In this document: piece by piece, positions 42,212-47,180 of the stretch | How the letters are laid out: every line of letters starts with the position of its first letter | Numbering within the stretch: position 1 is the stretch's first letter | Assembly: GCA_036567965.1 (NCBI GenBank) | Contig: DATCTN010000008.1 | Location: 1-64,000 of the forward strand | Reading direction: 5' to 3' | Origin: Candidatus Kryptoniota bacterium | GTDB lineage: Bacteria > Bacteroidota > Ignavibacteria > Kryptoniales > JAKASW01 | Length of the DNA: 64,000 nt | Notes under the pieces: generated by a model | Database searches by the model: none | What the model saw: only the letters and a program-made list of their open reading frames with translations | What the model was told of the DNA's origin: nothing | Translations under genes and position numbers: made by a program

Positions 42212-43249
42212 TTGAAGCAATCGAGCTGGAAGCGATCGCTGGTCGGGATAATTATAGCCCTCCTTTTCGTTTTCATTGCGTTTAAAGATATATCCTTCAG
42301 CTCATTGATCAGAGACGCGCTCAAGGCCAACTTCGGAATTCTGCTTCTGACAACCGCGGTTGTCCTTTCGAGTCACGTTATCCGCGCGCTCCGCTGGCGC
42401 GTAATACTCCGGGAGCTGAAGAAAGAAATCTCATTGATAGATACCTGGGGAAGCGTGATGGTTGGGTATCTTGCCAATAATTTTGTCCCGCGGCTCGGAG
42501 AACTTGTGCGCGCCTACTCCACCGGACGGCTTGAGAGCATCAGTGTCAGCGGTGTCTTTGGAACAATCGTATTGGAGAGACTCTTCGACATGCTGTCGGC
42601 GGGTATACTATTCGGCCTCGCCCTCTCAACTTACAGTGGCCATATCACACAGACTTTTCCGTTCCTTAAATTTGCGGGATTTATTCTCATCGCCGGATCG
42701 GTCGCTGCAGGCGCGACACTCTACATCGCGACTACCTTTCCGAAGGCGAGAGGATGGTTGATGACCGCCGTGAAGTTTCTTCTACCGAAACGTTTTCATG
42801 ACCGCGCCGAAGACACTGTCGGGTCGTTCCTGACGTCGTTCTCGCTTCTGCGTTCTCCGCGATGCATGCTGGAAATTTCAATCTATACAGCCTTTGTCTG
42901 GATCGCTTATGTTTTCACTCTCTACATTCCGTTCTTCGCTTTCGGCGCCACGTCAGGACTTACTCTATACGACGCGTTCATTCTAATCCTGATTACTTCC
43001 ATTGCCTGGATGATCCCCACACCGGGCGCGGTAGGTGTGTACCACCTTTTTGTCTCGCAGTCTCTGATAAAACTCTTCGGCGTTTCCCCTGACCAGGCTC
43101 TCGCCTATGCAACTTTGACTCATTTGTTTGGGTATGTGGCAATCACTGTAGTGGGTTCGATCTTTCTGTTCGCGTTTGCACAAAAACTGAAAGTGAGATC
43201 AATCCGCAGGTTATGGCAGGGGAGCGAAGAAATTGAGAAACCACATTGA
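42212..43249 (+). CDS. Flippase-like integral membrane protein (lysylphosphatidylglycerol synthase TM family)
   Basis: About eight membrane spans over 345 aa, in the UPF0104/LPG_synthase_TM pattern. The key segments are SSHVIRALRWRVILRELKK, VGYLANNFVPRLGELVRAY and ERLFDMLSAG, with TPGAVGVYHLFVS near the end. Family members move lipids or modify them with partner enzymes, and the substrate here is unknown. The start is a TTG with GGAAATTAATCA upstream, so it is not firm. It closes the plus-strand housekeeping run. No terminator is plain. Confidence 0.85.
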   Translation: MKQSSWKRSLVGIIIALLFVFIAFKDISFSSLIRDALKANFGILLLTTAVVLSSHVIRALRWRVILRELKKEISLIDTWGSVMVGYLANNFVPRLGELVRAYSTGRLESISVSGVFGTIVLERLFDMLSAGILFGLALSTYSGHITQTFPFLKFAGFILIAGSVAAGATLYIATTFPKARGWLMTAVKFLLPKRFHDRAEDTVGSFLTSFSLLRSPRCMLEISIYTAFVWIAYVFTLYIPFFAFGATSGLTLYDAFILILITSIAWMIPTPGAVGVYHLFVSQSLIKLFGVSPDQALAYATLTHLFGYVAITVVGSIFLFAFAQKLKVRSIRRLWQGSEEIEKPH

Positions 43250-43569: not shown

Positions 43570-43608
43570 TTCACAAATCCTTAACACAACTTTAACAAAC
43601 ACGTCAAA
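43570..43608 (+). promoter_or_regulatory. Pho-box-like direct repeats upstream of the porin
   Basis: TTCACA (43570), TTAACA (43581) and TTAACA (43592) recur at exactly 11-bp steps, and a fourth position (43603, GTCAAA) is partly similar. Direct repeats at 11 bp, with a TTAACA-like half-site in Bacillus PhoP sites, are how OmpR-class phosphate regulators bind. A TATCTT or TATTTT -10 lies about 20 nt further on, so the repeats replace the -35. The remainder of this 395-nt gap (43250-43569) shows no gene. Confidence 0.6.
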
Positions 43609-43644
43609 GCTTGGGAATATCTTATTTTCAAAAAAGGAGATAAC

Positions 43645-44667
43645 GTGCATTTGCGTAAGACGTACACTCTTGCCGCCATCCTGATGTTTTCAGGACTGGC
43701 ATCCGCTCAAAATCTTCCCAAATTTTCAGGATTGTTCTTCGGCGATTACTACTACGTGCTAGCGCACGATCCGAGTAATCCGCTTGGAAGCTTCACGGCT
43801 ACTCCGCTTCAGACCTCCATGCAACAGTTCGAGTACAGGCGGATCTATCTTACAGCCGACTACGATATCGCACAGGATTTCGCTGCGAGGTTTCGCCTCG
43901 AGTCTGATCCGACCGCATCAGCCTTAGGAAACGGTAAGCTGACCACAATGGTCAAGGACGCTTTCATCAACTGGAAGAATATCACCGACGGTGGCAACGT
44001 CATGATCGGTCTGCAGGGAACGCCGGAAATAAACATGGCGGAAGGAATATTCGGCTACAGGTCTTTGGAGAAGACGATCCAGGATCTACACGGAATTTCG
44101 TCATCGAGAGATCTCGGCGTTTCGTACAATCAGAAATTCTCCGACGAGTTCATGGCTGGGTTACTTGTAGGAAACAACAGCGGTAACAGCGTACCTGGCA
44201 ATAAATACAAGGCTGCCTACCTTTACGTTCAGTACAACCCGATGAAAGAATTCACAATTCTCTTAAACGGGCAATACAACGGCGCCGGTGTCGATCTCTT
44301 CAACAGGACCGCTGATATCATTATTAACTATGCAAACAGCATGTTCAGCCTCGGCGGACAATATTTCATGAATGGCATAAACCAGGCCGGTGGAACCACA
44401 TTGAAGAGAAACGGTTTCAGCATAAACGGCTGGGTCGCATTCATGGATGAGTTGCGGCTAGTCGCCAGGTTCGACAATTACACGCCGAACGCCGACATAA
44501 AAAACACGACGTTTGCTACCAGCACACAGAGTTTCATACTCGCCGGACTCGATTGGAGTGTAAGGAAGAACGTTCACTTAATGCCGAACTTCTATTATAC
44601 CGCTTATGGCTTGTCCGGCAGCAAGGCGGACGCGATTCTGCGAGCGACCTTTTTCATCACCTTTTAG
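43645..44667 (+). CDS. Outer-membrane porin, phosphate-selective type
   Basis: The signal peptide (HLRKTYTLAAILMFSGLASA) leads to a 16-strand-type barrel: alternating strands such as FEYRRIYLTADYDIAQDFAA, MFSLGGQYFMNG and FSINGWVAFMDELRLVARFD. It ends in Phe (FFITF), as outer-membrane barrels do. The layout matches OprO/OprP-like porins, and the genes that follow bind phosphate, so anion or phosphate passage is the likely role. The start is GTG 43645 behind GGAGA. The Pho-box-like repeats directly upstream suggest induction by phosphate starvation. Confidence 0.85.
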   Translation: MHLRKTYTLAAILMFSGLASAQNLPKFSGLFFGDYYYVLAHDPSNPLGSFTATPLQTSMQQFEYRRIYLTADYDIAQDFAARFRLESDPTASALGNGKLTTMVKDAFINWKNITDGGNVMIGLQGTPEINMAEGIFGYRSLEKTIQDLHGISSSRDLGVSYNQKFSDEFMAGLLVGNNSGNSVPGNKYKAAYLYVQYNPMKEFTILLNGQYNGAGVDLFNRTADIIINYANSMFSLGGQYFMNGINQAGGTTLKRNGFSINGWVAFMDELRLVARFDNYTPNADIKNTTFATSTQSFILAGLDWSVRKNVHLMPNFYYTAYGLSGSKADAILRATFFITF

Positions 44668-44733
44668 ACCGGCTCGTGAAATTTTACGATCCTAAAAAGA
44701 TAACAAAGCACATAACTTAGGAGGAGGAAAGAG

Positions 44734-45777
44734 ATGCCGAAGAAGTTTCTAATACTGGTAGCAGCTGTTTTCATTGCAGCTGCTTCACAGGCACAGACAG
44801 TGGTCAATGGAGCGGGGTCCACATTCGTCTATCCGCTATTCTCAAAGTGGTCGGAAGAATATCATAAGATGAAACCCGATATTCAGATCAATTACCAGTC
44901 TATTGGCAGTGGAGGTGGGATACAACAGCTTATTGCCGGCACGGTAAACATCGGCGCAAGCGATGCACCACTGACCGACCAGCAAACTGCAACGGCGGAA
45001 AAAGCTCACGGGCCGGTGCTCCACATTCCCGAGACAATGGGTGGAGTAGTAATGATGTACAATATCCCGGGTGTAAACCAGACGTTGAAATTTGACGGTC
45101 CGACCATCGCGGACATCTACCTCGGCAAGATCAAGTCGTGGGATGATCAGAGATTGAAGGATCTTAATCCCGGCGTGAATTTCCCCAGTACACCGATTAT
45201 CCCGGTGCATCGCGCTGACGGCAGTGGCACGACATATATATTTGCCGACTACCTGTCAAAGATCAGCTCAGACTGGAAGAACCAAGTCGGCGTTTCAACA
45301 AGTCTAAACTGGCCTGTTGGTCTCGGCGCGAAGGGAAGCGAGGGTGTGGCGGGCCAAGTCGAAAGGACTCCGGGTGCGATCGGTTATGCAGACTTAATCT
45401 ACGCACTCCAAAATAACATAAGCTATGGAGATGTGAAGAACGCTGCTGGCGTTTACATCCACCCGAGCCTTGACGGCGTCACGGCTGCGGCTGCCGCAGC
45501 AGCAAAGAGCTTCCCCAAGGATCTCAGGTTTTCTATCACTGATGCGCCGGGAAAGGCATCGTACCCCATTTCGAGCGCAACATGGCTTCTCGTTTTCGAG
45601 AATCAGACGGATTATGCGTCCGGGAAAGCAAGCGTGGAGTTCATCCATTGGGTGATCACCAACGGCCAGAAGTACTGCGCAGATCTTGATTATGCTCCAA
45701 TACCAAAGCAACTCGAAAAATTGGACTTGGTGAAACTGAGCCTCATCAGGTACAACGGGAAGAAACTGTTGAAATAG
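44734..45777 (+). CDS. pstS: Phosphate ABC transporter substrate-binding protein PstS (copy 1)
   Basis: Periplasmic phosphate-binding protein of 347 aa with a signal peptide (MPKKFLILVAAVFIAAASQA). Phosphate-contact loops are in QSIGSGGGIQQL, GASDAPLTD and HRADGSGTTYIF, then RTPGAIGYADLIYAL. It reads from AGGAGGAGG, following the porin by 66 nt, so it belongs to the porin's transcript. A strong hairpin terminator follows at 45804. The permease genes pstCAB are not in the window. It is a close paralogue of the next pstS and clearly arose by tandem duplication. Confidence 0.95.
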   Translation: MPKKFLILVAAVFIAAASQAQTVVNGAGSTFVYPLFSKWSEEYHKMKPDIQINYQSIGSGGGIQQLIAGTVNIGASDAPLTDQQTATAEKAHGPVLHIPETMGGVVMMYNIPGVNQTLKFDGPTIADIYLGKIKSWDDQRLKDLNPGVNFPSTPIIPVHRADGSGTTYIFADYLSKISSDWKNQVGVSTSLNWPVGLGAKGSEGVAGQVERTPGAIGYADLIYALQNNISYGDVKNAAGVYIHPSLDGVTAAAAAAAKSFPKDLRFSITDAPGKASYPISSATWLLVFENQTDYASGKASVEFIHWVITNGQKYCADLDYAPIPKQLEKLDLVKLSLIRYNGKKLLK

Positions 45778-45803
45778 TCTTAGCAACATCGGGGCAAGAG
45801 GAT

Positions 45804-45845
45804 GCGGGGCCGAAAGCGAAAGCCAAGGCTCCGCTTCTATTTTTA
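45804..45845 (+). terminator. Terminator after pstS copy 1
   Basis: GCGGGGCC and GGCTCCGC form an 8-bp stem (one G-T pair) around a GAAAGCGAAAG loop, followed by TTCTATTTTTA. The stem and loop are nearly identical to the terminator of pstS copy 2. Confidence 0.75.
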
Positions 45846-45909
45846 GAGACGCCGGCCGGCATTTCCTATCCCCACTTCCAAGAGTCTCCACACGGGTTCT
45901 CAACCGCGT

Positions 45910-45963
45910 TTCACTTCTCCTTAACGGAGGATTAACGCATACTTCATACCAACCAGTTAAATT
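45910..45963 (+). promoter_or_regulatory. Pho-box-like direct repeats upstream of pstS copy 2
   Basis: TTCACT (45910), TTAACG (45921), TTAACG (45932) and TTCATA (45943) follow each other at exactly 11-bp steps. A TAAATT -10 candidate (45958-45963) sits just beyond. The order TTCAC-TTAAC-TTAAC matches the array upstream of the porin, giving two independent instances of one operator. Confidence 0.62.
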
Positions 45964-46066: not shown

Positions 46067-47113
46067 ATGCTTAAGCGAGTGATGTTGGCGTTTGCAATTG
46101 TGGCACTCTGCGCAGCCCTTACGGACGCACAGACAATCATAAACGGTGCCGGCGCTACCTTTCCTTATCCGTTGATTTCGAAGTGGTCCAACGAGTACCA
46201 CAACCTCAAGCCGGATGTACAGATCAACTATCAATCGATCGGCAGCGGCGGCGGCATAAAACAGATGATTGCCGGAACGGTAAATTGGGGAGCCAGTGAC
46301 GCTCCACTTAACGACGAACAGCTCCATGCTGCCGACTCGGCGCACGGCCCGATCCTTCATATTCCTGAAACTCTGGGTGCCGATGTCATTGCCTACAACC
46401 TCCCCGGCGTCAATGAGATTTTGAAATTCGACGCAGAAACAATTGCAGATATTTTTCTCGGAAAGATAACGATGTGGAACGACGAAAGCATAAAGAAGCT
46501 GAATCCAAAAGTCGATCTTCCTAACCAACAGATCATCGTCGTTCATCGCGCAGACGGAAGCGGAACAACGTACATCTTCGTGGACTACCTTTGCAAAGTT
46601 TCGAAAGAGTGGAACGACAAAGTCGGCAAAGGAACAAGCGTGAACTGGCCGGTCGGAATCGGTGGAAAAGGCAACGAAGGAGTGTCCGGACAGGTTTCTC
46701 GTACGCCAGGAGCAATCGGATACATCGAGTTGATTTACGCTCTTCAAAACAACATTCCATTTGCGGACGTTAAGAATGTGGAGGGTGTGTTCGTTCACCC
46801 TTCAATCAAGGGAGTTACAGAAGCTCTTGCGAACGCTGCGAAGACATTACCAGAAGACTTGAGATTCTCGATCACGAACGCGCCGGGAAAAGATTCCTAT
46901 CCGATCTCCAGTGCAACATGGCTCCTTATTTACGTTCACCAGACGAACTACGAACTTGGAAAGGCGACAGTCGAGTTTATGAAGTGGGTAGTCACCGAAG
47001 GACAGCAATATTCGACTGCATTGGACTATGCACCGCTTCCAAAAAAGATCCAGGAGCTGGATGTTCAAAAACTCAAAATGGTAGAGTACAACGGAAGCAG
47101 CATCTTAAAGTAA
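46067..47113 (+). CDS. pstS: Phosphate ABC transporter substrate-binding protein PstS (copy 2)
   Basis: A 348-aa paralogue of the preceding PstS. Identical or near-identical binding loops run throughout (QSIGSGGGIKQM, GASDAPLND, HRADGSGTTYIF, ISSATWLLIY), and it has its own signal peptide. It is well conserved in the core and diverged in surface positions, such as LHAADSAHGP for TATAEKAHGP. The start has AGGAGA in front. It has a private promoter region with four 11-bp repeats and its own terminator, so the two copies can be expressed at different levels. A difference in affinity or phosphate/arsenate selectivity is possible. Confidence 0.95.
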   Translation: MLKRVMLAFAIVALCAALTDAQTIINGAGATFPYPLISKWSNEYHNLKPDVQINYQSIGSGGGIKQMIAGTVNWGASDAPLNDEQLHAADSAHGPILHIPETLGADVIAYNLPGVNEILKFDAETIADIFLGKITMWNDESIKKLNPKVDLPNQQIIVVHRADGSGTTYIFVDYLCKVSKEWNDKVGKGTSVNWPVGIGGKGNEGVSGQVSRTPGAIGYIELIYALQNNIPFADVKNVEGVFVHPSIKGVTEALANAAKTLPEDLRFSITNAPGKDSYPISSATWLLIYVHQTNYELGKATVEFMKWVVTEGQQYSTALDYAPLPKKIQELDVQKLKMVEYNGSSILK

Positions 47114-47140
47114 CCAGCCAAACCGCTAAACCGAATGAGT

Positions 47141-47180
47141 GCGGAGCCGAAAGCGAAAGCTCAGGCTCCGTTTCTTATCT
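47141..47180 (+). terminator. Terminator after pstS copy 2
   Basis: GCGGAGCC and GGCTCCG pair around the GAAAGCGAAAGC loop and are followed by TTTCTTATCTTC. It matches the terminator of pstS copy 1 almost base for base and separates the phosphate block from the convergent arsenic operon. The remaining gap (47181-47370) has no gene. Confidence 0.68.

Follow-up and report, generated by a model that had tools for sequence, protein, structure and literature searches.

Genes and operators at the locus

The window, the 64,000-nucleotide stretch of DNA analysed here, corresponds to C8:1-64000 in a Candidatus Kryptoniota genome of 4,145,171 bp and 32 contigs. It carries pstS1 (44734..45777, plus strand; TIGR00975, E 2e-113), encoding a phosphate-binding protein of the Pst ABC transporter, and pstS2 (46067..47113, plus strand; TIGR00975, E 4e-115), encoding a second one; the two share 65% identity. 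The gene at 43645..44667 (plus strand) opens a unit that also contains pstS1. Its product, described as a porin in the original prediction, has no match in Pfam, NCBIfam or PDB sequences, and its AlphaFold model (pLDDT 32, with strands predicted) is too poor to use. What stands of the description is a predicted beta-rich, exported outer-membrane protein; we keep ‘porin’ as a label. A hairpin followed by a T-run at 45803..45843 (plus strand, fold z -3.1) is a probable intrinsic terminator 3′ of pstS1, which a simple terminator scan did not pick up because of its long loop, and a near copy at 47136..47180 (plus strand, fold z -3.4) probably serves as terminator 3′ of pstS2. Since the first hairpin lies between pstS1 and the operator preceding pstS2, the latter gene is probably a separate transcription unit. 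Directly 5′ of the porin unit, at 42212-43249, lies a gene for an LPG-synthase-TM protein (PF03706), for which no Pho operator was found.

Two series of direct repeats precede these units, both on the plus strand. Operator 1 (43570..43608) consists of TTCACA (43570), TTAACA (43581), TTAACA (43592) and GTCAAA (43603), while operator 2 (45899..45948) consists of a weak half-site CTCAAC (45899) followed by TTCACT (45910), TTAACG (45921), TTAACG (45932) and TTCATA (45943). Re-reading of the sequence confirmed the 11-bp steps and the exact positions of the half-sites originally predicted, and added one half-site per operator, GTCAAA at 43603 and CTCAAC at 45899, both in the 11-bp register. The -10-like sites that had also been predicted are present as TATCTT (43618..43623, plus strand) and TAAATT (45958..45963, plus strand), each 15 bp from the start of the last half-site. 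Both operators thus contain at least two direct repeats of 11 bp, placed in the -35 region at a fixed distance from the -10 hexamer; the distance is 15 bp at all three sites found in this genome (before porin, pstS2 and pstC). A simple sigma-70 scan recognised no sigma-70 promoter at the operator promoters because they lack a -35 element.

Triples of TTMAY half-sites occur in the window at a spacing of 11 bp only, and only at these two operators; none was found at spacings of 8-10 or 12-15 bp. A first-order Markov sequence would yield 0.025 such triples per 64 kb, both strands included; for each of the two intergenic regions, a triple has a probability of about 1.5e-4. By their sequence, the sites at 43570-43608 and 45899-45948 are Pho boxes of a known kind in a lineage-specific form.

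Genome-wide distribution of the operator

We scored the whole genome by pattern searches with reversed-pattern controls. Three TTMAY half-sites at 11-bp spacing were found in five places, against none in the reversed control: at operators 1 and 2, before pstC (C30:90110), before a glycosyltransferase gene (C17:70751, minus strand) and at C30:184626. The last match (L006) overlaps the start of a 504-aa open reading frame and belongs to no recurring pattern; it is probably due to chance. The full pattern, which comprises three half-sites and the -10 hexamer (TTMAC-N6-TTMAC-N6-KTCA-N11-TANNTT), has exactly three perfect matches in 4.145 Mb, before the porin-pstS1 unit at 43645, before pstS2 and before pstC, the last of which is preceded on contig C30 by ppx and ppk and followed by pstA and pstB. 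The enrichment upstream of phosphate genes by which the original prediction was to be judged is therefore observed, with three of three perfect matches preceding such genes and none in the reversed control. No further match appeared when one mismatch was allowed; beyond that, the background resembled the control. Weak matches in single genomes (the full pattern with three mismatches, or three TTMAC half-sites with two) were at control level, and we believed them only if they were repeated across species.

Conservation in the genus and the sister family

The best named relatives of PstS (63-75% identity) come from metagenome-assembled genomes that are listed under Bacteroidetes or Candidatus Kryptoniota and in which the operator is found about 2.5 kb (before the porin gene) and about 130 bp (before pstS2) 5′ of pstS2. 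The nearest PstS relatives outside Kryptoniota (L079-L095) are archaeal, from Methanoperedens and others, at about 46-56% identity, and gene transfer is possible. Operator 1 is conserved in 13 of 13 congeneric genomes and operator 2 before pstS2 in the 11 that were aligned. Across species the half-sites and the -10 hexamer are kept while the intervening DNA drifts, and the operator is retained between species whose outer-membrane proteins share 57-70% identity.

A strict pattern with KTYA as the last half-site gave 20 matches in the 13 congeneric genomes, compared to none for the reversed control; a version with one mismatch gave 71 matches against 14. Nineteen of the 20 strict matches precede porin, pstS or pstC, and the remaining one precedes a gene for an LPG-synthase-TM-like protein, of which its genome also encodes a paralogue. 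Within the genus, as in the genome studied here (3/3), the operator is thus enriched at phosphate-acquisition genes and not elsewhere. In one congeneric genome (G003), two paralogous LPG-synthase-TM-like membrane protein genes (L173, L174) each start directly after a Pho-type operator.

The pstC promoters contain five half-sites in register. A matrix was built from 51 sites. Of these, 46-50 have TT in the -33 half-site, which was not part of most of the searches that yielded them, and 47 have a C before the second half-site. Four clusters of the sister family, which belongs to the same order, show the gene order phoB-phoR-pstS-pstC-pstA-pstB-phoU. Seven genomes of this family were scanned, and between phoR and pstS they carry three to four TTAAC-type repeats with a -10 hexamer at 15 bp; the -10 is weaker in one of them (L205 in G377, 71% complete).

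The probable cognate regulator

The genome contains phoB-phoR-phoU on contig C6 and pstCAB on contig C30, so that a cognate two-component system and the Pst/PhoU proteins are all present. Among five OmpR-family regulators of this genome that were compared, the one on C6 (C6:85998-86681, minus strand) is the best match of E. coli PhoB (42% identity vs at most 33% for the others), and it is also the best match of the PhoB proteins of the sister family (43-46%). It has the recognition helix DRTVDVHIR in common with E. coli PhoB, which is absent from the two other aligned regulators of the same genome. Against the NCBIfam PhoB equivalog TIGR02154, its best NCBIfam model, it scores 245.5 bits, below the cut-off of 296.2; the sister-family PhoB encoded beside pst and the operator likewise remains below it at 241.1 bits. 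Because of this score, the name PhoB is based on gene context and the recognition helix. At phoB itself, where tRNA genes lie upstream, no recognisable box was found. Altogether, six OmpR-type DNA-binding domains are encoded in the genome.

Further members of the predicted regulon

The glycosyltransferase operator lies at C17:70735-70777 (minus strand) and precedes a GT21 gene (L013 9562-10749, minus strand; PF13506) whose best NCBIfam model is HpnI, with a score below the HpnI cut-off. Its convergent neighbour (L013 8306-9502, plus strand; DUF6938 in Pfam) shows weak similarity to diglucosyl-diacylglycerol synthase. The GT21 gene with its operator was found in five genomes (the one studied here, G002, G003, G009 and G012), and in four of these five the gene pair is kept. 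In Caulobacter crescentus, the PhoB-regulated sphingolipid glycosyltransferases Sgt1 and Sgt2 produce glycosphingolipid under phosphate starvation (PMC6445935); by this analogy, the likely role of GT21 is the replacement of phospholipid by glycolipid when phosphate is scarce. For ppk, two half-sites were found in a 26-nt stretch that is identical in this genome and in L075; the stretch contains no clear -10, and nothing similar is present in L072. We include ppk in the Pho regulon tentatively.

A further Pho-type promoter appears to drive a small RNA. The match at C27:87271 had been set aside as a chance match before a gene for a sugar-degrading enzyme, a view that was overturned by its recurrence in other genomes and by the terminator that follows. 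Located 3′ of hflX and a 135-aa gene, the promoter (TTAAA-TTCAC-TTAAN, -10 at 15 bp) and transcript occupy C27:87260-87408 (L169 about 2260-2408; homologues L160-L168, L190, L191), and the predicted RNA of about 85-110 nt is placed at C27:87320-87408 on the basis of the Pho-type promoter, the terminator and a conserved core. It would consist of a stem arm GGCGCUGC, the core GGCCUCCACAAGACCAAACCAUCCAAGCCACAGUUC and a closing arm GCGGCGCC-UUUUU. The core is CU-rich, contains CCUCC and has an identity of 0.86 among 10 genomes, compared to about 0.3 in the flanks. With a covariance model the RNA was detected in 12 of the 13 congeneric genomes, each time preceded by a Pho-type promoter, and in 0 of 184 other genomes of the class; an Rfam search gave no match at E<=1. 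The copy in G006 was found by the covariance model only, and the presence of the promoter there in the same register provides an independent check. Full-length copies are present in 11 genomes; in G012 (L191, G012:C12:193637-193696) the Pho-type promoter is kept and the 5′ stem arm is lost. Covariation in the stem is slight, and the case for the small RNA therefore rests on the promoter, the terminator and the conservation of the core. With its own promoter, no conserved open reading frame, an intrinsic terminator and a conserved unpaired core, the RNA has the features of a trans-acting small RNA. The CCUCC core suggests pairing with Shine-Dalgarno sequences. On balance, we lean towards a function in which the small RNA represses the translation of phosphate-costly genes through CCUCC and forms, together with GT21, a phosphate-sparing arm of the regulon.

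Repeats outside the order

The idea that this is the Pho operator of an FCB-type lineage holds for the lineage itself and extends neither to the phylum as a whole nor to the FCB group: in a phylum sample of 296 genomes the strict pattern gave 7 matches outside the genus against about 12 in the control, i.e. no enrichment, in a scan that required KTYA at the end and passes over sites ending in TTAAC, as found in the sister family. For such sites, another pattern was run in the class only. The class scan (three half-sites and -10) gave about 51 matches against 12 in the control, and the downstream genes encode PstS in two further families, TonB receptors and small Lys-rich secreted proteins. Since these repeats also precede genes with no obvious relation to phosphate, the repeat alone is no proof of PhoB control outside the order.

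Several families of the class (L229, L231, L232, L243, L223, L227) carry TTAAY repeats of 11 bp, together with a -10, before genes for the small Lys-rich secreted proteins; the families concerned are AT-rich. At L232, the gene is followed by one for an OmpR-type response regulator that differs from PhoB. A second regulator, whose operator resembles that of PhoB, possibly acts on these repeats.

Proposed mechanism and alternatives

The half-sites, their register, the spacing to the -10, the gene context, the conservation and the presence of phoB-phoR-phoU are all features of sequence, and they lead us to consider it highly probable that phosphorylated PhoB, bound to the 11-bp repeats, activates the porin-pstS1 unit, pstS2 and pstCAB in low phosphate. 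When phosphate is scarce, PhoR would phosphorylate PhoB, dimers of which would then line up head-to-tail along the direct repeats of 11 bp (CTTMACN), which stand in for the -35 element. Bound PhoB would bring RNA polymerase with sigma-70 to the -10 located 15 bp past the start of the last half-site. As a result, the outer-membrane protein with pstS1, pstS2 and, on another contig, pstCAB should be switched on; very likely, the GT21 lipid glycosyltransferase and the small RNA are also switched on by the same operator. The original assignment to a PhoB-class regulator agrees with the phosphate-gene context, the retention in relatives and the adjacency to phoBR in the sister family. The predicted regulon extends beyond the two sites of that assignment and gains the lipid glycosyltransferase and the small RNA.

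The repeats might instead be the operator of another OmpR-family regulator that happens to control transport genes. The genome has six OmpR-type DNA-binding domains to choose from, regulators of this family besides PhoB can bind 11-bp repeats, and in other families of the class, genes not obviously related to phosphate are preceded by similar repeats and, in one case, followed by another response-regulator gene. We nevertheless regard this as improbable: the genes targeted within the genus are those for Pst and for the outer-membrane protein, the sister-family operator abuts phoBR and pstSCAB-phoU, and among the regulators aligned only the one on C6 has the DRTVDVHIR helix of E. coli PhoB. It is very improbable that PhoB or another regulator blocks these promoters rather than activating them. 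Some Pho boxes in other bacteria do act in repression; here, however, position and distance to the -10 (15 bp) are as in the activated E. coli phoA and pstS promoters, and there is no -35 hexamer, so that the operator promoters should need an activator. A chance origin of the repeats from AT-rich promoter DNA (UP elements or -35-like motifs), with no regulator involved, would fit the base composition, since GC makes up 47% of these regions compared to 50% of the window. Such an origin is already contradicted by the chance of about 1.5e-4 for a triple in each intergenic region, by the absence of reversed-control matches in 13 genomes and by the preservation of the pattern across species with 57-70% identity of the outer-membrane protein, which leaves it a negligible probability. 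Activation by PhoB remains our preferred reading.

Comparison with known Pho systems

Our analysis provides a first predicted phosphate regulon for the Kryptoniota lineage, comprising the outer-membrane protein, two PstS proteins, PstCAB and, tentatively, ppk; added to these are a gene pair with a likely role in glycolipid replacement and a family of small RNAs without database match. We found no paper linking Kryptonia with phosphate starvation. The small RNA is the component that could surprise, the operator itself being of a known kind. For the operator, a testable consensus results, in which CTTMACN5 repeats are set at 15 bp from a TANNTT -10.

Lipid glycosylation under predicted Pho control resembles the Caulobacter system, with the difference that the gene here belongs to GT21 (HpnI/ceramide glucosyltransferase-like) and Sgt1 and Sgt2 to GT4. 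Bacteroides fragilis belongs to the same phylum-level group as the bacterium studied here; its PhoB binds the pst (pstC) promoter and, when phosphate is low, activates transcription from it, and the accessible part of the report describes EMSA with a 512-bp fragment and maps no box (PMC3547664). Within the accessible portion of the literature, we found no mapped PhoB box for any member of Bacteroidota.

In general, a Pho box consists of two 11-nt direct repeats with a consensus that varies by species (PMC4415409). The half-sites here read (C)TTAAC or (C)TTCAC, the last one often being GTCA or GTTA, in contrast to (CT)GTCAT in E. coli, and an operator usually contains four to five of them rather than two or four. 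In Bacillus subtilis, the PhoP box is made of TT[A/C/T]A[C/T]A repeats, with half-site letters nearly identical to those found here. This likeness implies no kinship, and the promoter spacing was compared with E. coli only; the earlier hint at Bacillus PhoP, drawn from TTAACA, is uninformative, as the geometry is that of the PhoB class in general and equals that of E. coli phoA and pstS. In the Pho boxes of these two E. coli genes, as in ours, 11-bp direct repeats take the -35 position, and the E. coli record gives the same 15 bp to the -10 for phoA (GTCACG-N9-TATAGT; GTCACGGCCGAGACT-TATAGT) and pstS (GTCACC-N9-TATTTT; GTCACCTGTTTGTCC-TATTTT). The recognition-helix sequence of E. coli PhoB is identical to that of the PhoB encoded on C6. 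Thus, E. coli and a distant Kryptoniota lineage have the PhoB promoter geometry in common despite different half-site letters.
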